Of a stretch of 37,361 nucleotides of DNA, positions 2,383 through 37,361 are shown one piece after another. The first letter of the stretch is position 1; every line of letters begins with the position of its first letter. Both the position numbers and the translations under genes were made by a program. Under the pieces are notes generated by a model, which saw nothing but the letters and a program-made list of their open reading frames with translations, did no database searches and was not told where the DNA came from. The stretch comes from a virus. The stretch spans positions 1-37,361 of IMG/VR virus record IMGVR_UViG_3300035670_000653; one strand, given 5' to 3'.

Positions 2383-3602
2383 GCCTCCGACTTCGACTCG
2401 CCCAATGGGCGCTGCGCGGCGTGCATCCGCGCGACCCGGCGCTGGCCGAATGGCTCGGCATGCTCAACATGACGGCCGCCGGTGTCTCGGTGACGGCCGA
2501 GACCGCAATGCGAGTTTCGACGGTCTATGCGTGCATCAGAGTTCTGTCCGAGACCGTTGCCAGCCTGCCGCTCGTCGTCTATCGCCGGAAGCCCGGCGGC
2601 GGGAAAGAGCGCGCAACCGACCACTGGCTCTATTCACTGCTGCATGGTGGACCGAACGGCTGGATGACCAGCTTCGCGTGGCGCGAACAGGGTGTCGCGC
2701 ACCAATGCCTGCGCGGAGTTTCCTACAGCCGCATCATCGGCGATCCGCGCGGCCGGCGTCAGCTCGTGCCGATCCATCCCGACCGGATGCGCGTCAAGCT
2801 GCTCGATACCGGCCGGCTCGCCTATGAGCTGCAGAAACAGAGCGGCGGTACCGAGATCCTGCTCCAGGAAGAAGTTCTGCGCATCCCGCACCTGGTTGTC
2901 GATGGCATCCGCCCGGTGACGCCGATCGAAGCGCAGAAAGAAGCGCTCGGCGCTGCCCTGGCCGCCCAGGACTACAGCGCGCGCTTCTGGGCTAACGATG
3001 CCAAGCCGCGCAGCGGCTGGATCGAGATGCAGGGCGATTTCAAAAGCGGTGGCGACGAAGAGGGCTTCCGCAAAAAATGGCAGCAGTACATGACGGGCGA
3101 GAACCGCCACAAGATCGCCTTTCTGCCGAAGGGAATGACCTATCACGCGCTCTCCATGACCATGGAGGATGCGCAGTTCATCGAGACGCGCAAGCTGCAG
3201 CGCTCGGAAGTCGCGAGCATCTTCCGCGTTCCGCCGCACATGATCGGCGACCTCGAGCGTGCGACCTTCAGCAACGTCGAGCAGCAGTCCATCGACTTCG
3301 TCGTGCACACCATCCGCCCCTGGCTGGTGCGCTGGGAGCAAGAGCTGACGCGCGGCCTGCTTACCGAAGCCGAGCAGGAGAAGTATTTCGTCGAGTTCCT
3401 CGTCGATGGCCTGCTCCGGGGAGATGCCAATGCCCGCGCCAACTACTTCCGCACTGCCGTTCTCACTGGCTGGATGAACCGCAACGAGGTGCGCGAGATC
3501 GAGAACATGAACCGCGAGGAAGGGCTCGATGAATTCCTTGCCCCGCTCAACATGACCCCGGCCGATCTTCTGGCCGATGTATTGAAAGGAAAGACGGCAT
3601 GA
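2379..3602 (+). CDS. Portal protein, HK97 family
   Basis: A 407-aa protein recognisable as a Phage_portal (HK97-type) member: AETAMRVSTVYACIRVLSET near residues 39-58 and the stretch containing RSEVASIFRVPPHMIGDL in the middle are hallmark segments. It forms the dodecameric ring at the capsid vertex through which DNA passes. The start codon overlaps the TerL stop, and its own stop overlaps the protease start (ATGA), giving a tightly coupled TerL-portal-protease unit. The length is usual for the family. Confidence 0.94.
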   Translation: MSLRLRLAQWALRGVHPRDPALAEWLGMLNMTAAGVSVTAETAMRVSTVYACIRVLSETVASLPLVVYRRKPGGGKERATDHWLYSLLHGGPNGWMTSFAWREQGVAHQCLRGVSYSRIIGDPRGRRQLVPIHPDRMRVKLLDTGRLAYELQKQSGGTEILLQEEVLRIPHLVVDGIRPVTPIEAQKEALGAALAAQDYSARFWANDAKPRSGWIEMQGDFKSGGDEEGFRKKWQQYMTGENRHKIAFLPKGMTYHALSMTMEDAQFIETRKLQRSEVASIFRVPPHMIGDLERATFSNVEQQSIDFVVHTIRPWLVRWEQELTRGLLTEAEQEKYFVEFLVDGLLRGDANARANYFRTAVLTGWMNRNEVREIENMNREEGLDEFLAPLNMTPADLLADVLKGKTA

Positions 3603-22090: not shown

Positions 22091-23632
22091 CTATGCCGCT
22101 TTACGGTTCCTCGGAGCCTGAAACGGGACCCAAGCCCGCAAAGTGGGGTTAAGGTCAGATACCCGTGGGGACGCCAGCTTAACCCCACTTGCTCCGATCC
22201 GGTAACGGATCTCCCCGGAGCGGGTGGCAGGATCGAGGCTTATAGCCTCGATCATTGTGCCGAGGAAGTCTTTCAGGTGGTCGCGATCAAGCGCCGCCAG
22301 ATCTTCGGCCAGTGCGTCGAGCATTCGACGCACGTCGCTTTCCTTCACCGCCGCCAGCGCTTTCGCGCGGCGCGTCTCTTCTTCCAGCCGGCCGAGCCGC
22401 TCGCTGGTATCACCCCGGGTTGTTTCCAGTTCTTCCAGTCGCCTCAGCAGCGGGCCGGGCTGGTCCGTCTCCTCGAGTAGCGCCGTCAGCTTTCCGATCC
22501 GCTTATCGATGTCGCGCAGTTCGCCCTGCAGGGTCTGTAGCTCGTGGCCGTCGCCGGGCTGCTGGGCGGCACGGGCGCGCTCCGTCATGGTTTTCACCAT
22601 GGCGTCGCCGCGGATGTCGATCGCCACCTGCTGCAAGATGGCCTCCTCGAGCAGGGTCGACTTGATGTTCGCGCTGCCGACCCGGTAATTGCCGGCGTTG
22701 CCGTGCCAGGCACGGCCGTCTGGCGTATGTACCAGGCCGGCAAGCAGGTAGTCCGATATCCGCGCGCGGGTTGCCTTGGCCGCTTTTTTCCCCTCCAGTC
22801 GCGCCAGAATGGCCTCGGCGGCATCGTCGGTGATGAGCGCGGCGTGTGTATCACGCTGTACCGTCCATTCGCTCCTGGGCCGCCTACGGCCCTCGCCGGC
22901 GTCCTCTTTCCCGCGGTGCATGTTCCAGACGGTATGCCCGGCGTAGGTCAGCGCCGACCATTCCAGGTGTGCCAGGCTGCTCTTGGCGAGCTCGATGTTG
23001 AGCCGGTCTGCCAGTAGCCGGCCGTTCTTGCCCTGGGCGCGCCCCTGCAGCCAGGCGGCGATCTTCGGCCCCGTCAGGGGGTCTGCTTCCAGTTTGCTTT
23101 TTGTCACCGGCTGGCCGTCGCGCACCATGCCGGTGTCGATGGACAGCAGGCGGTAGCCATAGGGAGCACGCCCGCCGGCGCGGAATCCCTGCCGCACGTT
23201 TTCGGCCATGCCGGCCAGCCCTTTCTCACGGCTCATCAGGCTGTGCACTTCATCCATGGCCTGCAACACCGAGTCGAGGATCACCTGGGATATCGGGTCG
23301 ACCTCGGGAACCTTGGCGAAGACGATGTCGACGCCGAGCTTCTTGCATTCGTGGCGGAAGGCCTCGGCAATGTAGCGCCGGCGACCGATGCGGCTGGTGT
23401 CATAGATGAGGATGGCCGACCAGGTGCGCGACTTGAGCTTCAGATCGCGGAGCAGCTGCTGAAACCCGGGCCGGTCGGTGTCCTTGCCGGACTCGACGGC
23501 GTCGGCGTATTCAGCGGTGACGATCAGGGATCGCGACTTGGCTAGATCCAGCAGCTCGTGGCGCTGCGCCTGGATCGAGATCGCGCTGCGGTCTTTGGAC
23601 GACCTGCAGTAGAGGGCGGCTTGTCTTGGCAT
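22091..23632 (-). CDS. Large serine recombinase (phage integrase)
   Basis: A 513-aa integrase of the resolvase/invertase superfamily. The catalytic domain opens ALYCRSSKDRSAISIQAQRH with probable nucleophile S12 and R10, and has IYDTSRIGRRR with D78 and R81. A Recombinase domain follows (GGRAPYGYRL near residue 155), then a coiled coil (about 360-440). Odd feature: the region that normally carries a CxxC zinc ribbon reads LLAGLVHTPDGRAWHGNAGN and has no cysteine pairs. No Shine-Dalgarno is clear before ATG 23632. It is the last gene of the leftward operon and faces the late genes. Confidence 0.9.
   Translation of the reverse strand: MPRQAALYCRSSKDRSAISIQAQRHELLDLAKSRSLIVTAEYADAVESGKDTDRPGFQQLLRDLKLKSRTWSAILIYDTSRIGRRRYIAEAFRHECKKLGVDIVFAKVPEVDPISQVILDSVLQAMDEVHSLMSREKGLAGMAENVRQGFRAGGRAPYGYRLLSIDTGMVRDGQPVTKSKLEADPLTGPKIAAWLQGRAQGKNGRLLADRLNIELAKSSLAHLEWSALTYAGHTVWNMHRGKEDAGEGRRRPRSEWTVQRDTHAALITDDAAEAILARLEGKKAAKATRARISDYLLAGLVHTPDGRAWHGNAGNYRVGSANIKSTLLEEAILQQVAIDIRGDAMVKTMTERARAAQQPGDGHELQTLQGELRDIDKRIGKLTALLEETDQPGPLLRRLEELETTRGDTSERLGRLEEETRRAKALAAVKESDVRRMLDALAEDLAALDRDHLKDFLGTMIEAISLDPATRSGEIRYRIGASGVKLASPRVSDLNPTLRAWVPFQAPRNRKAA
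22141..22190. repeat. Perfect 13-bp inverted repeat in recombinase 3' end
   Basis: AAGTGGGGTTAAG (22141-22153) and CTTAACCCCACTT (22178-22190) are exact reverse complements separated by 24 bp. They lie inside the last codons of the recombinase (encoding around GVKLASPRVSDLNPTL). It could be a terminator stem, a binding site, or a trace of an inserted element that replaced the original C-terminus. Confidence 0.75.
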
Positions 23633-25027: not shown

Positions 25028-25428
25028 GGTGCGGCCTCCTCGATCGCCATGCGGATCTCGGTAAGCAGCGCGTCAATTCCCTCCTGGCTTTCATCGCCCT
25101 CGAAGCCAGCAATGAACGATTCAGCGCGTTGCAATGCGGCTTGCAGCTTGGAGATCGCCATGCCGACGCCGGCCAGCGTCATGTCGACCTTGGCCATGTC
25201 CGCTGCGCGATGGATCATGAACGGCGTGCCCTGTTGGCGTAGTTGTGCCATCTCCTCGATCTTCTCTATGGGCATGCCGACCAGCGCATTCACGCAGGCC
25301 ACGATGCGGCGGCCATTCTCGGCGCCCCATATATCGGCCACGATATGGCCTTGGCTGTCGCGCAAGGCTGGCCCTTCCGGGCCGCCATCGTCGAACGAGA
25401 GCTTCCATGGTTCCGGGCTAGATGACAT
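25024..25428 (-). CDS. Uncharacterised 134-aa early protein
   Basis: ATG 25428 lies inside the 3' end of the SSB gene (11-bp overlap). The N-terminal half is beta-rich with [20 protein letters not shown] and a following helix [10 protein letters not shown], a pattern common in short phage proteins. The C-terminal half is helical ([20 protein letters not shown]) and ends acidic. No enzymatic motif is seen. Position suggests an accessory role in early DNA metabolism. Confidence 0.68.
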
Positions 25429-25909
25429 GGCAGGCGCTCCCCCTCCCGATCGGGCCGAACGGAATATCGTCCTCGAAATCATTGAAGCCGCCGCCGCCCT
25501 GCGCGCCGCCAGCATTCCGTTGCGGTGGGGTCGCCGGTGGCGTGGCCGATCCTGCTGCCGGCTGACCGTTGCCTTCCTTGCGGCCGAGCATCTGCATCTG
25601 GTCGGCCACGATCTCGGTGGTGTAGCGGTCCTGGCCATCCTTGTCCTGCCACTTGCGCGTCTTAAGGCTGCCCTCGACATAGACCTGCGCCCCTTTCTTC
25701 AAGTACTGCCCGGCGATCTCGGCCAGCCTGCGGAAGAACACCACGCGATGCCACTCGGTGGCCTCCTTCTTCTCGCCGCTGGTCTTGTCCTTCCAGGTGT
25801 CGGTGGTGGCGACCGTGATGTTCGTCACTTGGTCGCCGTTGGGCATGTAGCGCACGTCGGGGTCTTTGCCGAGATGGCCGATGAGAATCACTTTGTTGAT
25901 GCTGGCCAT
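25418..25909 (-). CDS. ssb: Single-stranded DNA-binding protein
   Basis: A 163-aa SSB: the OB fold begins [20 protein letters not shown] and includes [20 protein letters not shown] and [20 protein letters not shown], close to bacterial SSB. The Gly/Pro linker leads to [10 protein letters not shown], the acidic tip that recruits repair and replication proteins. Unusually the tip is not terminal: twelve more residues follow, encoded where the gene overlaps the next start. The start overlaps the stop of the HD gene (ATGA). Confidence 0.95.
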
Positions 25910-26448
25910 CAGGCGGCCCTCCTGTTTTCCGTGGTGGTGAGTTCGACGTAGCGCTTGAGAAAAATGGCCTGGGCCCGCGAGGGCTGCATGGCGATGATCT
26001 TGCGCGGCAGCGGCTCGATGTTCGCGAGGATCTGCCATGGCGTAGCATCGTCGGGCATCAGGTCGCGGCGCTCGGTGGCCAGCAGCACCAGGTCGGCATG
26101 CTTGACGGCCGGGCTCATGGCGCCTGGCAGGTCGAAGCGCGCGCGGATGATGGTTTCGACGCGCTCCTCGATAGCCTGGTAGTCGGGCAGCAGCTGCTTG
26201 AGCGGCCGCGGGATGTCCTTGCAATAGGCCTCGCTGGAGTCGTGCAGCAGCGCCTCGAGGGCATGCTCGGCCGGCACGATCCGGCTGGCCAGCCAGGCGT
26301 GCTGCGCGACGCTGTAGAAGGCGCGCGTGTGGCCGTTGTAGCGCGCCTCGTTGGCCAGCCCCTGGGCGATGTCGAGGATGTGGATGTCCTCGGGCCGTGG
26401 GTCGGTGTAGCTGAAGTGGCGGCCGGTGGCGGTGAGTATCCAGCTCAT
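25909..26448 (-). CDS. HD-domain phosphohydrolase (YfbR-like)
   Basis: A 179-aa HD-domain enzyme with H50, the HD pair at 69-70 ([10 protein letters not shown]) and a later Asp at 119 ([15 protein letters not shown]), the full HD metal-binding set. The closest style is YfbR-like 5'-nucleotidases that act on deoxynucleoside monophosphates, so a role in shaping nucleotide pools is likely. It sits between a small ORF and SSB with 4-bp and 1-bp overlaps. Confidence 0.88.
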
Positions 26449-26714
26449 AAAGCCCCCTCGTAGCGGGCGCGCAGCGCCTGGTAAATCTGCCGGCCGATCT
26501 CGTCGGTCACTGGCACCGCGTTGATCGTCAGATCACCTTCGATGGTTGCTCCAACCGATGTCAGAAACAGGTCTAGCTCGATGGTCGGCGCTTCATGGCC
26601 GTACTTGCGAATGGTGATAGCGGTGGCCATGTGGTCCATTCGCTGGCCATCGATCTCGATTGCCGGTGTTTCGCCAAGACTGTTGCGGCGCAGGTTCAGC
26701 GTAGCCTTGCTCAT
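26445..26714 (-). CDS. Uncharacterised small protein, beta-rich
   Basis: An 89-aa protein overlapping ParB and the HD gene by 4 bp each. It reads [40 protein letters not shown] and then a helix ([20 protein letters not shown]). The alternation of charged and aliphatic residues suggests a small beta-sheet domain. No family is recognised. Confidence 0.72.
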
Positions 26715-28774
26715 GCTGCGGCCTCCGCGGCTTCCTTGGACTCCTCGACGCCGGGTAGCGTCATGGTTTGGGTATCGTCGGCCGGTGGCGGGAAGGGCCA
26801 TGCCGTCGCAGCCGACTTCGCTGCTGCCGGTTTCTTGGCGATCTCGCGCACCTCCAGCCCGCCGCCGCGCTTGAACAGTTCCTTGACCCAGGCGGGTTCC
26901 TTGCCCCTGCCCGTCCAGGTCAACGTTGGGTTGCTCGGGTGGCAGTAGATCAGGCCCTCGGCCAGTTCCGGCTTCGACGGTTTTGCCGCCGCAGGCGGCT
27001 CGTTCGCCGGCGAAGCCGGCGCTGGATCGGTCTTTGCCTTTGCCTTCTTCGCCGCCGGCGTCTTCGGCTTTTCCGGGGTCTCCGGCGCAGCCGGCTTCGT
27101 GCCCTTCACCTGCGCTTGCGCAGCTGGGGAAGGGGTAGAAGCCGCTTTTGCTCCGCCACGCGCGGCTGGTTTCGGCTTGGTCTTCACGCGCATTTCGGCG
27201 ATTACCGCGGACTTGATGGCGGCGGTGTCGATCTCGAGCGACTGGGCCATGGCCAGCAGCTTCTCGGCATCGCGGTCGGCGTAGCTGGGGACCGTGACGT
27301 CGCCAACGATGGCGCATTCGATCAGCAGGCGGCAGAGGTCGCCGCGCTCCATGGCCGGGATGCGCTGCTTGAGCTCGTGGATCAGCGCATGGTCATCCTG
27401 CTTCTCGTGGGTGGGGCCGACCCACAGGCGGGCGAGGCGCTTCTGATTGTCGAAGCCGGTGCGGTAGAACAGCGCCTCGGCGACGAGGCGGTATTCGTTG
27501 AGCTGCAGGTCGGCGTCGGCGGCGCTGAAATCGACGGTCAGCTTGCTGCGCACCTGCTCGAAGACGCGCTGCCGGAAGCTGGCCTCCTGTTTGCGCTTGC
27601 GCTCGGCCTCTTTTTCCTTCGTGCTCTTGCCGCCGCGCGTGAGGCCTTCGACCTTGTCGGCCAGCCCCTTGGCTTCGAGCTTCTCCTGGATGGTGGACTT
27701 GGCCATGGCTTCGATGACCTTGCCCTTGTGGTGCGGGTCGATGATGATGGCCTCCGCCTTGGCGTCGCTGTCGAGCGCCTTGCGCAGCGTCTGGTACTTG
27801 CCGCCGACATAGACTTCCTTGTCCAGGCTCACCAGGCCGCCGACGAGGTCGCTGTGGCTGTACGGCTTGACCTTCTTGGCCTCGGCGCCGTCGATGACCT
27901 TGACGCCTTCCTTCTTCGCCGCTTCCTTCTGGCGCTTGACGTGGGCCGCCGCCTTAGCCTCGTAACACGGCGGGTCGATGCACATGTCTGCACTCTTCAC
28001 GTCGGCGAAGAGGTCGTCGGCGTTGCCGGTGCGCTTGGGGCAGGCCAGGCAGCTGCCGGCGCTGGCCACTAGCTCGTCGTCGGCGCGCGAGAAGTTGGCC
28101 TGGTCGAGCCGCAGCATGAATTCGCGCTGCACCATGTCGCTCGCCTGGCGGTAGGACATCGGCTCGGAATCGCTGTAGTAGGTGCCGCTGGCGATCTTCT
28201 TCGCCGCCGCGACCTGCAGCTCCGGCACCGGGATGCGCGCCACCAGCAGTGCGGTGATGGCGTCGAGCTTGCCCTCGGCGAAGAACTTGAGCGCCGCCGG
28301 GCAGAGTTCGAGCAGCTTGAGCTTGGCATAGACGTAGCCCTTGCTCTTGCCGATCTTGACGGCGATGCTCTCGGCGGTGTGGCCGTAGTCATTCATCAGG
28401 TGGCGGTAGCCCTTGGCCTCCTCGATGGCGGTGAGGTCCTTGCGCTTGAGGTTCTCGATCAGTTGCAGCTCGAGCGCCTGCTCGTCGCCGATCTCGCGCC
28501 AGAAGAAGGGAATGTCGGCGAGTCCGGCATGCCGGGCGCCACGCCAGCGGCCCTCGCCGATGACGATCTCGTAGAGCACGCCATCCGGCGCCGGGCCGCG
28601 CGCGGCCGGCCAGGGGCGTGCGGTGATCGGCTGCACGACGTCGTACAGTTTGATGTTTTCTCCGAGGTCGGCGATGTGTTCGGCCGTGTGCGTGCGGTTG
28701 GTCAGCGACGGCGCGAAGTGGCCGATCGGCGCGCGGGCAACGACGGTGCCGGCGGGTGGCTGCGGGGCGTTCAT
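26711..28774 (-). CDS. ParB-like protein, PRTRC style, H-NS-like tail
   Basis: A 687-aa protein. The ParB/Srx-type N-terminal domain has IGEGRWRGAR (72-81) and QLIENLKRKDL (104-114), followed by a KorB-like helix-turn-helix region near 132-155. A cysteine cluster follows (CLACPKRTG at 242-250, then CIDPPC at 265-270), probably zinc binding and typical of PRTRC-system ParB proteins. Residues about 615-629, NPTLTWTGRGKEPAWV, resemble the H-NS C-terminal DNA-binding loop. AGGAGA precedes ATG 28774, which overlaps the stop of the broken retroelement gene. It may act in replication, partition or DNA modulation. Confidence 0.85.
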   Translation of the reverse strand: MNAPQPPAGTVVARAPIGHFAPSLTNRTHTAEHIADLGENIKLYDVVQPITARPWPAARGPAPDGVLYEIVIGEGRWRGARHAGLADIPFFWREIGDEQALELQLIENLKRKDLTAIEEAKGYRHLMNDYGHTAESIAVKIGKSKGYVYAKLKLLELCPAALKFFAEGKLDAITALLVARIPVPELQVAAAKKIASGTYYSDSEPMSYRQASDMVQREFMLRLDQANFSRADDELVASAGSCLACPKRTGNADDLFADVKSADMCIDPPCYEAKAAAHVKRQKEAAKKEGVKVIDGAEAKKVKPYSHSDLVGGLVSLDKEVYVGGKYQTLRKALDSDAKAEAIIIDPHHKGKVIEAMAKSTIQEKLEAKGLADKVEGLTRGGKSTKEKEAERKRKQEASFRQRVFEQVRSKLTVDFSAADADLQLNEYRLVAEALFYRTGFDNQKRLARLWVGPTHEKQDDHALIHELKQRIPAMERGDLCRLLIECAIVGDVTVPSYADRDAEKLLAMAQSLEIDTAAIKSAVIAEMRVKTKPKPAARGGAKAASTPSPAAQAQVKGTKPAAPETPEKPKTPAAKKAKAKTDPAPASPANEPPAAAKPSKPELAEGLIYCHPSNPTLTWTGRGKEPAWVKELFKRGGGLEVREIAKKPAAAKSAATAWPFPPPADDTQTMTLPGVEESKEAAEAAA

Positions 28775-29165
28775 GGATGATCTCCTGTGGTGGCGTGGTG
28801 ACGGGTGGAACCGGTGTGGGATAGCGCGGCCCGATAGGAGCGGATGGCTTCGCTCCGGTCGCGGCCATGGGTTTCGTGCTCGCGCTGGCGGCGGTGGTAG
28901 CGGCTCCGCAGGTACTGCCCGGCCGAGACGTGGCCGGGCCAGACGACGTAGCCGAGGAAGGGGATGCCAGCGCGTAGGCGGTGCGGTCGTAGCCGTGCAG
29001 GAACTTGCCGGCCTGCACCAGCACCAGGTGGCCGGGGTGCTGTTCCTCGAGCTTGGCCGCGATCGCGGCAACCGGGTCGGCCTGGCCAAGGCCAAGCTCG
29101 ATGCCGCGGTAGCTGCGAATCGCCAGCTGCTCCTGCTCGTCGGTGGTGGGGAATTGTGTGCTCAT
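28771..29165 (-). pseudogene. Remnant DGR genes: MutS-like accessory fused to RT tail
   Basis: From ATG 29165 one frame gives about 66 residues (QLAIRSYRGIELGLGQADPV, then HPGHLVLVQAGKFLHGYDRT) with the MutS-domain-I-like pattern of DGR 'MSL' accessory proteins. At about 28967-28985 the coherent reading shifts frame and becomes RLRAGIPFLGYVVWPGHVSA, later DRSEAIRSYRAALSHTGS. This resembles the C-terminal tail of DGR and retron-type reverse transcriptases (an FLGxxVxP segment, then a SWxaHxxHxxS-like end). Its stop overlaps the ParB ATG as ATGA, which supports a real gene end. The RT palm with its YxDD box, the rest of MSL and any template repeat are missing, so an internal deletion is the simplest reading. 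Assignment is from memory of family motifs. Confidence 0.6.
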
Positions 29166-29210: not shown

Positions 29211-29351
29211 TCAGTGACCGATGGGTTGGGTGCAGCGGAAGCCGACGTAGCCGCCGCGGTAGCCGGGCCAGTCGTTGCTGAGACGGAACGCGCCGGCAAC
29301 GGCCTCCGAGCGCCAGTAGCCGCCCCGGACGAGCGCATCGCCGGACCAATC
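29211..29351 (-). repeat. Variable repeat 1 (DGR VR)
   Basis: This 141-bp 3' segment matches 30906-31046 without gaps, with 14 substitutions. All fall on codon positions 1 or 2. The last 36 bp before the final codon (through GFRCTQPIG) are invariant, as expected of an initiation-of-homing region. Confidence 0.82.
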
Positions 29352-29903
29352 GGCACCGGTGCGCGGGGTCCATCCCTGGCCCTTGTCTTTGTCGGGGAAG
29401 GGGATCACCAGGCTGGGTGAATCCTTGGCGAAGGGCTTGGCGACCAGGCCCTGCTCATCACCCTGCACGTCGTCGGACACCCAGGTGAAGACGTTGCCGG
29501 CGACGTCGAAGATTCGCTGGCCGTCGGGCAGGGCGAACCAGCGGCGCTCGTCGGGGTCGCTCGATACGAAGTCGCCGGCCTGTGCCGATCTAACAGTCCA
29601 TTTGCGCAGGCCCTGATAGAGCTTGCCTTTGCCGATTGCGCCGCCGGTCCAGTTCTCGGGTTGCAGCGCCACCTGGTAGGCCAGCGCCAGTGCCTGGGAT
29701 TCGGTGATCAGCGCGTAGCCGGCGGCCGCGCAGGCGGCCTTGGCTTCCGCGAAGTTGATGCGCACCCAGGGCGTGCCCTCGGCGGTGATGGCGGCACGGC
29801 CGCCGGTGCCCTGAGTGCAGACGTATTGACCGACGCGGAAGGCGGGCACGATGCGGCCGCCGGGCAGGGTGGTTTCAGGGACGGTGACGAACAGGTCTTT
29901 CAT
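29211..29903 (-). CDS. DGR target protein 1, FGE-like C-type lectin fold
   Basis: A 230-aa protein of the formylglycine-generating-enzyme/sulfatase-modifying fold, used by many DGR variable proteins as a ligand-binding scaffold. It reads FRVGQYVCTQG near the N-terminus, WVRINFAEAKAACAAAGYAL in the centre, DVAGNVFTWV, and a C-terminal RGGYW...GYVGFRCTQPIG typical of the fold. Variable residues relative to its paralogue are D189, V192, Y196, R198, E200, V202, R207, S209, N210, G214 and H230. ATG 29903 overlaps the upstream stop (ATGA) with GGAG before it. No signal peptide is seen, so it acts in the cytoplasm or is carried by the virion; its ligand is unknown. Confidence 0.85.
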   Translation of the reverse strand: MKDLFVTVPETTLPGGRIVPAFRVGQYVCTQGTGGRAAITAEGTPWVRINFAEAKAACAAAGYALITESQALALAYQVALQPENWTGGAIGKGKLYQGLRKWTVRSAQAGDFVSSDPDERRWFALPDGQRIFDVAGNVFTWVSDDVQGDEQGLVAKPFAKDSPSLVIPFPDKDKGQGWTPRTGADWSGDALVRGGYWRSEAVAGAFRLSNDWPGYRGGYVGFRCTQPIGH

Positions 29904-30181
29904 TCGGGAATCTCCATGGTGGCGGCTGAGGCAATGGCGGGAGCGCGGCCGTAGCCGGCGTTTTCGATGATTTCGCAGTGCAGCCGGCCATCCTCGATCC
30001 TGGCGACGGCTTTCTCGTCGCGGCTGATGGGCAGGCATACCTCGCTGACCCATTTGCGATAGGCCGCGTTGGCGGCGAATGTGCGGTCCCGATAGTCGAG
30101 CAGGCCCTGCAGCAGCAAATAGGCGAAGACCAGTGCGGTGGCGGTGAGGAAACGGCACAGCAGCGGCGTCATGCGGCGCAT
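29900..30181 (-). CDS. Small membrane-anchored protein
   Basis: A 93-aa protein with one N-terminal transmembrane segment (LLCRFLTATALVFAYLLLQG) and a soluble remainder with two further cysteines (EVCLP and LHCEI). Start 30181 is chosen because GGAGGT lies six bases upstream; an internal ATG at 30172 overlaps the preceding stop and is an alternative. It ends inside the start of DGR target 1, so the two are coupled. Function unknown. Confidence 0.68.
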   Translation of the reverse strand: MRRMTPLLCRFLTATALVFAYLLLQGLLDYRDRTFAANAAYRKWVSEVCLPISRDEKAVARIEDGRLHCEIIENAGYGRAPAIASAATMEIPE

Positions 30182-30905: not shown

Positions 30906-31046
30906 TCAGAGACCGATGGGTTGGGTGCAGCGGAAGCCGACGTAGCCGCCGCGGTAGTCGGGCCAGTCGCCGTTGAGACAGAACGCGCCGGCACCGGCCA
31001 CCGAGTACCAGAGGCCGCCCCGGATGAGCGCACCGCCGGACCAATC
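30906..31046 (-). repeat. Variable repeat 2 (DGR VR)
   Basis: Second copy of the 141-bp repeat. Codon pairs relative to copy 1 include GAT/GGT, GTC/ATC, TAC/CTC, CGC/TAC, GAG/GTG, GTT/GGT, CGT/TGT, AGC/AAC, AAC/GGC, GGC/GAC and CAC/CTC. Every difference can descend from an A in a common template. Confidence 0.82.
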
Positions 31047-31634
31047 CCACGTTTCGTAGTCACCCATGCCCTTGGTTCGGCTGGGGAACGGTGGTGTGGT
31101 GATGGAGGGCGAGTCCTCGGCGAACGGTTGGGCGATCAGGCCCGCCTCGTCGCCCTGGACGTTGTCGAACACCCACTGGTAGATGTTGCCGTTCAGGTCG
31201 CAGATCCGCTCGCCGTTGCTGAGCGTTAGCCAGCGCTGCTCGTCCGGGTCTTCCGGCTGATAGATACCGGGCTGGGCGGAATCGACGGTGTTCTGGCGCA
31301 GGCCCTGGGCGAGCCGACCCTTACCGACGATGCCGGTATTCCAGTTGCACGCCTGCTGCGAAACGTCCCAGGCGATGGCCAGCCATTGCAGCTCGGTGAT
31401 CAGTGCGTAGCCGGCGGCGATGCAGGCGGCCTTGGCTTCTTCGAAGTTGATGCGCACCCAGGGTGCGCCCTCGGCGGTGACGGCGGCCTTGCCGTCGGCG
31501 CCCTGCGTGCAGACGTATTGACCGACGCGGAACGACGGCACAACGGTGCCGTTGGGCAGGGTGACTTGGGGGGCGGTGATGAAGAGGTTGGTGGTGCTGG
31601 GGGTGGTTTCTGCGGCGACTGCTGGTGCGTTCAT
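30906..31634 (-). CDS. DGR target protein 2, FGE-like C-type lectin fold
   Basis: A 242-aa paralogue of target 1, with 12 more residues, most of them an N-terminal extension. Shared blocks are FRVGQYVCTQG, WVRINFEEAKAACIAAGYAL, DLNGNIYQWV and the C-terminal GYVGFRCTQPIG. Variable positions corresponding to target 1 are G201, I204, L208, Y210, V212, G214, C219, N221, G222, D226 and L242. Outside the repeat the two genes differ at all codon positions, including silent ones (Ala GCG/GCA, Thr ACT/ACG). It is the first gene after the leftward promoter, so it should be the most strongly transcribed of the operon. Confidence 0.86.
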   Translation of the reverse strand: MNAPAVAAETTPSTTNLFITAPQVTLPNGTVVPSFRVGQYVCTQGADGKAAVTAEGAPWVRINFEEAKAACIAAGYALITELQWLAIAWDVSQQACNWNTGIVGKGRLAQGLRQNTVDSAQPGIYQPEDPDEQRWLTLSNGERICDLNGNIYQWVFDNVQGDEAGLIAQPFAEDSPSITTPPFPSRTKGMGDYETWDWSGGALIRGGLWYSVAGAGAFCLNGDWPDYRGGYVGFRCTQPIGL

Positions 31635-34288: not shown

Positions 34289-34479
34289 TGCGCCACCCTT
34301 TGCCGCGCATCATCGCCACGCGCCACCAGGCATCGCGCGACGGGATCGTCATCGAGCGCGTTGTGCTCGATGAGCCGCCGGTGGCGGTGGTGTCGGATGT
34401 CGAGTCCGTCATGGGCCTGTGGTGGCTGCGCTCCGGCGGTTATCCGGTCGGCCGATTGTTTTGCACCTGGGCCGGATAG
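34288..34479 (+). CDS. Uncharacterised 63-aa protein
   Basis: Starts in a TGATG overlap with the CII-like gene. It reads HQASRDGIVIERVVLDEPPV, then VMGLWWLRSGGYPVGRLFCT. Beta-rich with a Trp pair; no family is recognised. Coupled between CII and the primase, so probably an early replication accessory protein. Confidence 0.6.
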   Translation: MRHPLPRIIATRHQASRDGIVIERVVLDEPPVAVVSDVESVMGLWWLRSGGYPVGRLFCTWAG

Positions 34480-34481
34480 CC

Positions 34482-36917
34482 GTGGATCAGGGAAGGCTCC
34501 CGTTCGCCGAGATCGCGGCCGCCTGCCTGTCGCACGCGGCCGCGCTGTTGAAGGAATGGCTGCCGGGAGGCCATGCCGAAGGCCACGAGTGGAAGGCGTT
34601 GAACCCGACGCGCGCCGATGGCAAGGTCGGCAGCTTCTCGGTAAATATGACCACCGGGGCCTGGGGCGATTTCGCGTGCGACGCCGACAAGGGCGGCGAC
34701 CTGGTGTCGCTGTATGCCTACCTGTTCCTCGGGGGCGACCAGGGCCGCGCGGCCGTCGAGCTGGCCGAGCGCTTCGGCATCGCCCTGCCGCCGCTGGAGA
34801 AGGGCCGTAAGCGCAAGGCGAGGGCAGCGCAGCCGCCTGCACCACCGGCGGAGTCGCCGCCGAAAGAGCCGCGCACCTGGTGGGTTCCGCTCCGGCCGGT
34901 GCCGGACGATGCGCCGGCGCCGCCGCAGGCGCATCCGAACCGTGGCGTTCCGGTGCGGATCTCGACTTACCGCGAAGCCGACGGCAGGGTGATCGGCTAC
35001 GTTTGCCGCTTCGTCACCAGCGACGGCGGCAAGGACGACATTCCGCTGGTTTTTGCGCGTCACGAGAAGTCGGGCAAGTGCGACTGGCGCTGGATGGGCT
35101 TTGCAGAGGAGAAGCGGCCGCTCTATGGCCTCGACCGCGCGGCGGCGAAGCCGGAAGCGACGCTGATCTTCACCGAGGGTGAGAAGTGCGCAGACGTCGC
35201 ACATGAGCAGCTGCCCGAGCTGGCCTCGGTGTCGTGGCCGGGCGGCAGCAACGGCGTGCGCAAGGCCGACATCGAGGCGCTGGCGGATCGCCAGGTAAAG
35301 AGGGCCGTGCTGTTCCCGGACTGCGATGCGCAGCGCGAGAAGCTGACGAAGGAGGAAAAGGCGGCCAGCGTCGATCCGGCATCGAAGCCGTACCTGCCGC
35401 CGGAGAAGCAGCCAGGCATCAAGGCGATGCTTGCCATCGCCGAGCGCCTGCATGCGATCGGGTACAAGGTCTGGATCATGGACATTCCAGCTCCCGGCGA
35501 GAAGCCCGCGGGCTGGGATATTGCCGATGCTGTCGAAGAGGGCTACACGCCAATACAGCTGGCTGAGTACATCCGCGAGAAATGTCTCCCGTACCCGCAT
35601 CTGCTGGTGCCGTCTGATGACCCTGCGGAGCCGGCTTCTACCCCATCAAATGCTGGCGCGGGCAAGGGGAGGGTTTCCCCACCGTGGATACCGGACCTGC
35701 GCTATGACAAGGGCAGCCTGAGCAGCTGCCTGCTGAACGTGTATCAGATCCTCGCCCATCATCCGGCGTGGCAGGGGGTGGTGGCCTTCGACGAGATGTC
35801 GCTGTGCACCGTCAAGCGCAAAGCCCCGCCCTATGCCGAAGGCCGGGTAGGGGAGTGGGACGCGCAGGACGACTCGCGCACGGCGATGTGGCTTCAGCGG
35901 GTCTATGACTTCTCGGCGTCGTCGGTGATGGTGGCTGAGGCCATCGAAGTGCTGGCCCGGTCGAACGCATGGCATCCGGTGCGCGAGTGGTTGCGCAGCC
36001 TGAAATGGGATGGCGAGAAGCGCCTGAACGGCTGGCTGACAAAATATCTCGGCGTGACGCTGTCGCCGTATTCGGCGCGGGTGGCGGCCTGGTGGCTGAT
36101 GGGCGCGATCAAGCGCGTGCTGCAGCCGGGGGCGAAGTTCGATTACTGCCTGGTGCTCAGCGGCCCGCAGGGCAAGGGCAAGAGCACGGTGTTCGAGGTG
36201 CTCGGCGGCGATTGGTACGGCGACACCGAGCTCGACCTGCAGAGCAAGGATGCGATGAGCGCCCTGCGCGGCAAGATGATCTATGAGTTCCCCGAGCTGG
36301 GCGCGCTGGCGCGCTCGGAGGAGCGGCGGCAGAAGTCGTTCCTGTCGCGGCGCATCGATGAGTACCGGCCGGTGTATGGCCGCCGCGAGATCAAGGCGCC
36401 GCGCCAGGTGGTGTTCGGCGGCTCGACCAACGAGCATGAATGGAACAAGGACCCGACCGGTGGGCGGCGCTTCTGGCCGGTGGATTGCCTGGCTGAGGTG
36501 ATCGATATCGCCGGCCTGCGCGAGGTGCGCGACCAGCTCTTTGCCGAGGCTCTGGCGCGCGTCGAAGCCGGCGAGCGCTACTGGCCGACGGCCGAGGAGC
36601 AGCGCGAATTCTTCGACGAGCAGCAGCTGCGCGTCGAGCAGCAGGACAGCATTGTCGATGCGATCCACGACTGGGTCTATGCCCGCGTGGCCGATTTCTC
36701 CGCCTATGACGTGGCGGCGGAATGTTTGAAGCTGGATGCGTCGAAACTGACGCGCGATCTGCAGACCCGCATCGGGATCGCGCTGAGGAAATTGGGTTGC
36801 GCTCGGGTCGAGCGTCGCAATGGAATGATCCGGTACTGGTACAAGCCTCCCGTTCGAAATGAGGCCAGCTCGACGTCCGGACAAGCCGAATGGGAGCATG
36901 ACGATGTGCCCCTTTGA
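34482..36917 (+). CDS. Primase-helicase (Toprim plus VirE-type ATPase)
   Basis: An 811-aa replication protein, with GTG 34482 as the first start after the preceding stop; the Shine-Dalgarno is weak, so the start is uncertain. The N-terminal part has a DNA-primase-like stretch (GSFSVNMTTGAWGDFACDAD) without a zinc-finger cysteine set. The Toprim domain shows TEGEKCAD (E232) and FPDCD (D280, D282). A VirE/D5-like ATPase follows, with Walker A GPQGKGKST at 561-569 and downstream YEFPELGALARSEERRQKSF and TGGRRFWPVDC. It would unwind and prime phage DNA. Confidence 0.9.
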   Translation: MDQGRLPFAEIAAACLSHAAALLKEWLPGGHAEGHEWKALNPTRADGKVGSFSVNMTTGAWGDFACDADKGGDLVSLYAYLFLGGDQGRAAVELAERFGIALPPLEKGRKRKARAAQPPAPPAESPPKEPRTWWVPLRPVPDDAPAPPQAHPNRGVPVRISTYREADGRVIGYVCRFVTSDGGKDDIPLVFARHEKSGKCDWRWMGFAEEKRPLYGLDRAAAKPEATLIFTEGEKCADVAHEQLPELASVSWPGGSNGVRKADIEALADRQVKRAVLFPDCDAQREKLTKEEKAASVDPASKPYLPPEKQPGIKAMLAIAERLHAIGYKVWIMDIPAPGEKPAGWDIADAVEEGYTPIQLAEYIREKCLPYPHLLVPSDDPAEPASTPSNAGAGKGRVSPPWIPDLRYDKGSLSSCLLNVYQILAHHPAWQGVVAFDEMSLCTVKRKAPPYAEGRVGEWDAQDDSRTAMWLQRVYDFSASSVMVAEAIEVLARSNAWHPVREWLRSLKWDGEKRLNGWLTKYLGVTLSPYSARVAAWWLMGAIKRVLQPGAKFDYCLVLSGPQGKGKSTVFEVLGGDWYGDTELDLQSKDAMSALRGKMIYEFPELGALARSEERRQKSFLSRRIDEYRPVYGRREIKAPRQVVFGGSTNEHEWNKDPTGGRRFWPVDCLAEVIDIAGLREVRDQLFAEALARVEAGERYWPTAEEQREFFDEQQLRVEQQDSIVDAIHDWVYARVADFSAYDVAAECLKLDASKLTRDLQTRIGIALRKLGCARVERRNGMIRYWYKPPVRNEASSTSGQAEWEHDDVPL

Positions 36918-37196
36918 GCGTCGATTCTTCCCAACCTTCCCGACCTCGGCGGCGAGGTTCGGAACCCGCGAGGCCTTGCGGCCCAATGGAGTTCCTAACC
37001 TTCCTAACCTTCCCGACCTTTTCTCCTCACGTGTGCGTGGGCGCGCGTGCGGGCGTATGCACCCGCAGGCCCGCGTACGCGCGCACGCGCACCTGACCAT
37101 TTTCACGTTGGGAAGGTTAGGAAGGTTGGGAACAGTCAGGCGCCACAAGGGCTGCAGGGTTCCTAACCTCTGCCCAACCTCGGCAAGGTTGGGAAC
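36918..37196. repeat. Inverted repeat array, candidate origin or control region
   Basis: No gene. The unit GTTCC(T/C)AACCTTCC recurs: 36928-36947 (partial), 36991-37018 (two units), 37107-37133 (two units, inverted; 25 of 27 bases match 36991-37017) and 37159-37196 (facing halves). Between them, 37029-37092 is almost pure GC with alternating CG/CA steps and imperfect arms. Translations give Pro-Asn-Leu/Leu-Thr-Phe repeats, which are not protein-like. The location after a primase-helicase suits an origin or iteron cluster; an attenuator array is another option. Confidence 0.65.
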
Positions 37197-37361
37197 ATGA
37201 GCGGCGGCATGCGCGATCAGATGCCCGTTCTCGCGGCCTTCGTCGATGAGCTGCGGGAGGCCTTTGGCGCCGATGAGATCAACAACGTCATCCGCCGTGG
37301 CCTTCGGCCTGACTGCGAAGTCGAACACCGGGTGTATTTCAGCGAAGGCGGGGCAACGCTG
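37197..37361 (+). CDS. Partial conserved phage protein
   Basis: The first 55 codons of a gene that runs off the window: MSGGMRDQMPVLAAFVDELR, EAFGADEINNVIRRGLRPDC, then VYFSEGGATL. This resembles short phage proteins located between primase and terminase genes. If so, the window's right end is close to its left end on a circular or permuted genome. AAGG lies seven bases before ATG, inside the last repeat. Confidence 0.65.
   Translation, partial: MSGGMRDQMPVLAAFVDELREAFGADEINNVIRRGLRPDCEVEHRVYFSEGGATL

Follow-up and report, generated by a model that had tools for sequence, protein, structure and literature searches.

SaPI Rep and Cch2 bind iterons via their C-terminal domain and have their origins just downstream of their own gene (PMC7581432). 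In a similar way, PICI origins consist of sets of iterons that flank a core and lie 3' of rep, the core being AT-rich in the legend of Fig. 2 (PMC6092414). Based on the comparison with these systems and across related loci, we propose that an array of twelve short sites in a temperate phage is very probably an iteron origin to which the VapE/SaPI-Rep-type primase-helicase of the same phage binds. Other systems share single traits with this organization. In phage P4 (ori/crr) the alpha protein combines primase and helicase and recognizes its own iterons, as we propose for the phage enzyme, but there two iteron regions are located far apart. The origins of SV40 T antigen and papillomavirus E1 resemble the array in that inverted sets of sites surround a core of similar length (64 bp in SV40) and a double hexamer is formed, yet they differ by their AT-rich and EP elements, an N-terminal origin-binding domain and unrelated units. 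Lambda-type origins carry the iterons inside the initiator gene, and for the Streptococcus thermophilus phage Sfi21 the origins reportedly lie near the primase gene.

The window, i.e., the whole stretch of DNA analysed here, comprises the 37,361 bases of a virus record from IMG/VR. Unlike a phage-inducible chromosomal island it is not a satellite, since it encodes a terminase large subunit, a portal and a tape measure protein. Other genes specify CI/Cro-like regulators, an integrase (22091-23632), an SSB (25418-26224) and, on the minus strand, a ParB-like protein of 794 aa (26711-29095). Two further proteins encoded on the minus strand (29211-30158 and 30906-31634) have matches to PHROG 2889 and to a family of sulfatase-modifying factors; folds of this type are frequent targets of diversity-generating retroelements. 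The features that concern us here are the following, in window coordinates:

34419 to 36917, plus strand: primase-helicase of 832 aa, in which a TOPRIM-like N half is followed by a VapE/SaPI-Rep-type AAA+ helicase and by a winged helix at the C terminus; the proposed initiator
36648 to 36845, plus strand: C-terminal winged helix, with its helices and wing strands as placed by the AlphaFold2 model, the proposed iteron reader
36834 to 36836, plus strand: codon of Tyr806 (in R-Y-WYKPP), the unit-class residue according to column mutual information and its position in the model
36928 to 36945, plus strand: outer sites 1 and 2 (TTCCCAACC, TTCCCGACC), starting at 36928 and 36937 in a pattern scan
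36956 to 36964, minus strand: outer site 3 (TTCCGAACC on that strand), lying 36 bp ahead of the left tandem triple
36992 to 37018, plus strand: left tandem triple (TTCCTAACC TTCCTAACC TTCCCGACC), with starts at 36992, 37001 and 37010
37019 to 37105, no strand: core of 87 bp, a tract of alternating purines and pyrimidines whose short ends are AT-rich (TTTTC left, ATTTTCA right)
37106 to 37132, minus strand: right tandem triple (TTCCCAACG, TTCCTAACC, TTCCCAACC on that strand, by rising coordinate), with starts at 37106, 37115 and 37124
37160 to 37179, plus strand: outer sites 10 and 11 (TTCCTAACC, TGCCCAACC), starting at 37160 and 37171
37187 to 37195, minus strand: outer site 12 (TTCCCAACC on that strand), with its end 1 bp from the start codon of the following open reading frame
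37197 to 37361, plus strand: start of the next open reading frame, without family and cut by the window end

The primase-helicase carries a PF05272 VapE-like domain (E 1e-68), matches PHROG DNA primase/helicase families and is aligned by hmmsearch with PriRep1 of PDB entry 7pds (E 1.8e-81). Its true start may lie downstream of the annotated GTG, and its N half we take, by motif, to be a TOPRIM domain. An AlphaFold2 model of a 412-residue slice (mean pLDDT 93.2, 84 sequences) superimposes on 7pds, which has been solved with double-stranded DNA and is presumably the SaPI1 protein, with a VIA Z of 35.5 and an rmsd of 3.4 over 390 of the 412 residues. The aligned range of the model, residues 2-393, takes in the winged helix (H324-335, H342-349, H359-371, E375-378 and E386-389 in slice numbering), and Tyr806, residue 386 of the slice, is the first residue of the second wing strand. 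The proposed initiator helicase, including its C-terminal domain, is thus homologous to that of the SaPI/PICI replicon.

Repeat units in both orientations had been noticed in a reading of the sequence alone (hereafter the sequence-only reading), and we confirm them at 36928-37195. That reading described them as GTTCC(T/C)AACCTTCC words. Such repeats exist, but the 14-base word occurs exactly once per strand, and the array is better described as twelve 9-bp units, TTCC(T/C)AACC or one mismatch from it, in a mirror layout of three outer and three tandem sites, the core, and again three tandem and three outer sites. The 27-bp pair reported there corresponds to 36991-37017 and 37107-37133, identical at 25 of 27 positions with starts 116 bp apart. 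The last dyad does reach the next start codon: it ends at 37195, and a single base separates it from the ATG at 37197. The plus strand of outer site 12 is rich in purines and may also serve for ribosome binding. In the whole window TTCCYAACC is found 21 times when up to one mismatch is allowed, compared to 7.3 (sd 2.7) in shuffles, none of 100 shuffles reaching 21, and 12 of the 21 matches fall inside the array.

The resemblance to the SaPI/PICI replicon extends from the enzyme to the DNA. Directly 3' of the proposed initiator gene lies the candidate origin, as in SaPI/PICI elements (PMC6092414, PMC7581432), and two iteron sets flank a core, as in PICI origins (PMC6092414). The C-terminal domain is the reader in SaPI Rep (PMC7581432), and for the phage we propose the same role from covariation. 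Differences concern the core, which alternates and is mostly GC-rich in the phage with AT boxes of only 5-6 bp at its ends, whereas the PICI core is AT-rich in that legend (PMC6092414), and the array itself with its fixed mirror layout of twelve sites and its TTCC/GTCC-type units. Most likely the phage array is homologous to the SaPI/PICI replicon and works like it, as judged from sequence comparison. SCCmec Cch2 and its putative origin are similar in that the helicase binds direct repeats just downstream via its C-terminal domain (PMC7581432), a binding that we propose for the phage protein as well. However, Cch2 has three 5-nt iterons, belongs to a different helicase family (D5/SaPI5-like) and lacks the twelve-site mirror. 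Unlike in a lambda-type origin, all twelve phage sites are situated after the stop of the initiator gene (36917) and before the next ATG (37197).

Conservation in relatives, the absence of which the sequence-only reading had named as one half of its refutation, was found for both the layout and the position after the primase-helicase gene. Close relatives (44-76% identity) have the same layout after the primase but other units, e.g., TTCCATACC in locus L003, TTCCTAACC in L006 and a GTCCAACC-type unit in L012. As the comparison shows, the unit is swapped as a whole between phages while the geometry is kept. Among the unique loci selected by protein, a relaxed finder detects an array in 90 of 121 compared to 44 of 333 control stretches, and a strict finder in 75 of 118 compared to 9 of 454 controls; the 31 of 121 loci without an array detectable by the relaxed finder count against the origin reading. 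The association also holds when the search starts from the DNA. A blind pattern scan for two adjacent YA units yielded 64 stretches, 43 of which hold a primase relative beside the array. Twenty of the other 21 have no inverted site cluster, and in the remaining one (L020) the primase gene lies in another part of the record and is immediately followed by the array. An AY-unit scan gave a primase in 47 of 59 newly fetched loci and no inverted cluster in the other 12, of which L274 has its sites at the extreme end of the sequence, so that its array may be cut off. Four viral contigs without this primase (L019, L028, L029, L060) carry TTCCYAACC pairs in direct orientation 288 bp apart, which are probably coding-region repeats.

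Named phages differ in this respect. The alternating tract is present in Haddon, VarioGold and Aval. PS3, Bob, phiSP15-1 and CL31 have repeated units in both orientations without an alternating tract of like strength, and no convincing array was seen in Mica and BT2. In Marinobacter phage PS3 (L241), GGTCA-type units downstream of the primase gene form a similar inverted array at 3198-3453, the core of which contains a short alternating stretch and is otherwise mixed. For two primases with an RYWY wing (L177, L180) an array was not found within the DNA examined; their relatives L245, L250 and L260 have F together with AY arrays that follow the stop at a distance of about 100 bp.

The geometry is conserved. 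The 82 arrays of the TTCC class contain a median of 12 sites, compared to a density of 0.21 per 360 bp elsewhere in the loci. In 65 of these arrays both triples are spaced exactly by 9, and these form the strict geometry set; the other 17 miss one perfect triple, some via 8-bp steps or truncation of the array. Within the strict set the inward, nearest outer site of the left half lies at -36 in 53 arrays and at -35 in 12, and the nearest right outer site, counted from the first site of the right triple, at +54 in 51 and at +53 in 12. Outer clusters consist of exactly three sites on the left in 45 and on the right in 50 of the 65 arrays. Core length varies from 63 to 102 bp across arrays.

Array and enzyme are also linked by the covariation of the unit with a single residue of the winged helix. 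A primase match was obtained for 212 loci, reduced to 166 unique ones after near-identical C-termini and loci short of post-stop DNA were dropped; 87 of these carry TTCC-class units, and the 81 with at least 300 residues entered the association test. In all 81 primases the unit class is predicted by the residue corresponding to Tyr806, with Y or R accompanying TTCC-YA-ACC and F, H or S accompanying TTCC-AY-ACC. The AY class (ATACC, ACACC) comprises 37 F, 3 H and 1 S, the YA class (TAACC, CAACC and a few variants) 27 Y and 13 R, the R in these 13 of 40 Y-type rows being a single clade that adds little. Mutual information with the unit class is 1.0 bit for this column, which is all there is, compared to 0.55 for the next-best column. 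The pattern was first spotted by eye in an alignment of 20 proteins, and the remaining proteins served to test it. When the helicase tree is built without the C-terminal domain, 11 changes of class are counted, of which starred branches force 7; independent pairs on such branches go in the expected direction in 7 of 7 cases (p 0.0156). The distinct C-termini fetched later beside AY units have F in 21 of 22 and H in 1 of 22; these 22 proteins make the held-out evidence AY-type only, as a four-locus scan gave no new YA-type protein. For six of the later-fetched AY proteins (L245, L250, L260, L288, L296, L319) the nearest relative in the first set has Y.

These data describe a single-residue code, Tyr or Arg versus Phe, His or Ser. 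The repeated switch of all twelve sites with one residue makes a good case for initiator-origin co-evolution. The unit covaries with the wing residue and the enzyme matches SaPI PriRep1, and we therefore regard the array as the likely iteron origin read by its own initiator. The suggestion of the sequence-only reading that the locus looks like an origin is thus well supported by comparison, the array lying 3' of a SaPI-PriRep1-like initiator in relatives. The proposal points to a likely replication start for a large group of uncultured phages, mainly with betaproteobacterial hosts, and names the domain that would read it. Candidate hosts are indicated by GTDB loci such as L160 (Methylovorus menthalis) and L163 and L165 (Nitrosospira). 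A literature search retrieved no paper on this array, which is weak evidence of novelty since subscription journals were thinly covered, and with the 9-mer as text query no phage-origin paper by title was among the matches listed.

The core had been read as 64 bp of GC-only alternating sequence. The alternation stands (83% in the inner part), but the core measures 87 bp, has a G+C content of 68% and contains A and T. Across the 65 arrays the inner core alternates between purine and pyrimidine in on average 84% of steps (minimum 67%), the steps GC, CG, CA, AC, GT, TG, TA and AT together make up 83%, and G+C averages 62%. A best 50-step window with at least 40 alternating steps occurs in 75 of 118 loci compared to 3 of 454 controls. 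Core sequences align barely better than shuffles that preserve purines and pyrimidines until the helicases are more than 70% identical, and the letters of the core thus drift while the alternation stays. Core G+C partially tracks gene G+C (r 0.47, 64 loci), and pyrimidine-purine steps amount to 42% in the core versus 26% in the gene. Toward the core, each triple is followed by five or six AT-rich positions (mostly 60-100%, with 55% at the second left base).

Other functions of the array are to be weighed against these observations. The sequence-only reading had also offered a regulator-binding cluster. Operators of this kind would allow a repressor, a CII-like protein or the primase as autoregulator only to control the downstream operon. 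We consider this improbable, even though the last site lies next to the following start codon and a CI/Cro-like match and a weak CII-like match are encoded upstream, as no promoter-like site was found in 36800-37300 and the window holds no second cluster of sites (9 scattered one-mismatch matches outside the array versus a whole-window expectation of 7.3). The perfect tracking between unit class and primase residue and the mirror layout of twelve sites around a long core argue against operators as well, and a separate transcription regulator in particular is unlikely. The downstream open reading frame was rejected as a general reader of the sites, its relatives being found by tblastn beside some arrays only. 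A site for centromere function, packaging or recombination would have candidate partners in the ParB-like and integrase families of the window, but we give it almost no weight because the array adjoins and covaries with the primase, the one protein for which covariation was examined.

It is very improbable that the inverted arms serve as a cruciform or an RNA hairpin (attenuator, terminator or structural signal). The large cruciform suggested earlier can indeed be drawn, a single-stranded DNA stretch of 146 nt having a folding energy of -56 kcal/mol (z -10.65), and yet it is not what selection keeps, because mirrored sites are no more alike than others and the core does not pair better than shuffles do. 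A terminator was likewise not found in 36800-37300. The identity of the variable base is 0.69 between mirrored and 0.70 between non-mirrored sites (42 Y-type loci), that of position 6 is 0.87 versus 0.84 (23 A-type loci), and core folding compares to shuffles preserving purines and pyrimidines with a mean z of -0.10, only 2 of 65 falling below -2. Against the iteron origin itself stand, besides the relatives in which no array was found (Mica, BT2, L177 and L180 among them), two other observations. Its core, alternating and for the most part rich in G+C, is the reverse of what textbooks describe as a melting zone, and the GC-skew profile that the sequence-only reading had proposed as a check gave no switch at the array: over 52 loci the skew is 0.108 on the left and 0.071 on the right, with right exceeding left in 16, and skew within the window places no origin at the array.

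For an iteron origin, the following mechanism can be proposed. The C-terminal winged helices would bind the sites, six sites per half would suit one hexamer per half, and two helicase rings would load head to head, facing the core, which would be the stretch that is encircled and opened. Opening may begin at the short AT boxes that adjoin each triple on its inner side, and from there it may extend along the alternating tract, which might have been chosen for its many weakly stacked pyrimidine-purine steps and not for AT richness, and which could flip to Z-DNA under negative supercoiling. The primase half of the same protein would then prime both strands. The boldest step is that the tract acts via Z-DNA or deformability; the core does consist of an alternating purine-pyrimidine tract as expected for a Z-DNA-forming element, but we put this forward tentatively, as somewhat less than an even chance. 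With similar reserve, we see a possible class of phage origins in which a Z-prone conformational core, selected for its alternation and not for its letters, replaces the AT-rich melting zone and is opened by a head-to-head double hexamer of the SaPI-Rep type, and in which one wing residue sets replicon identity, all twelve sites being swapped with it. If true, the joint swap of wing residue and twelve sites would be a phage incompatibility switch that has been used many times.

A second class of units, CGTCCAACC-like, is found in L012, L114, L117, L136-L138 and others, with steps of 8 bp and 10 bp. The primases of this class have another wing sequence (REWVY, REYYY), and the residue code may extend to them.
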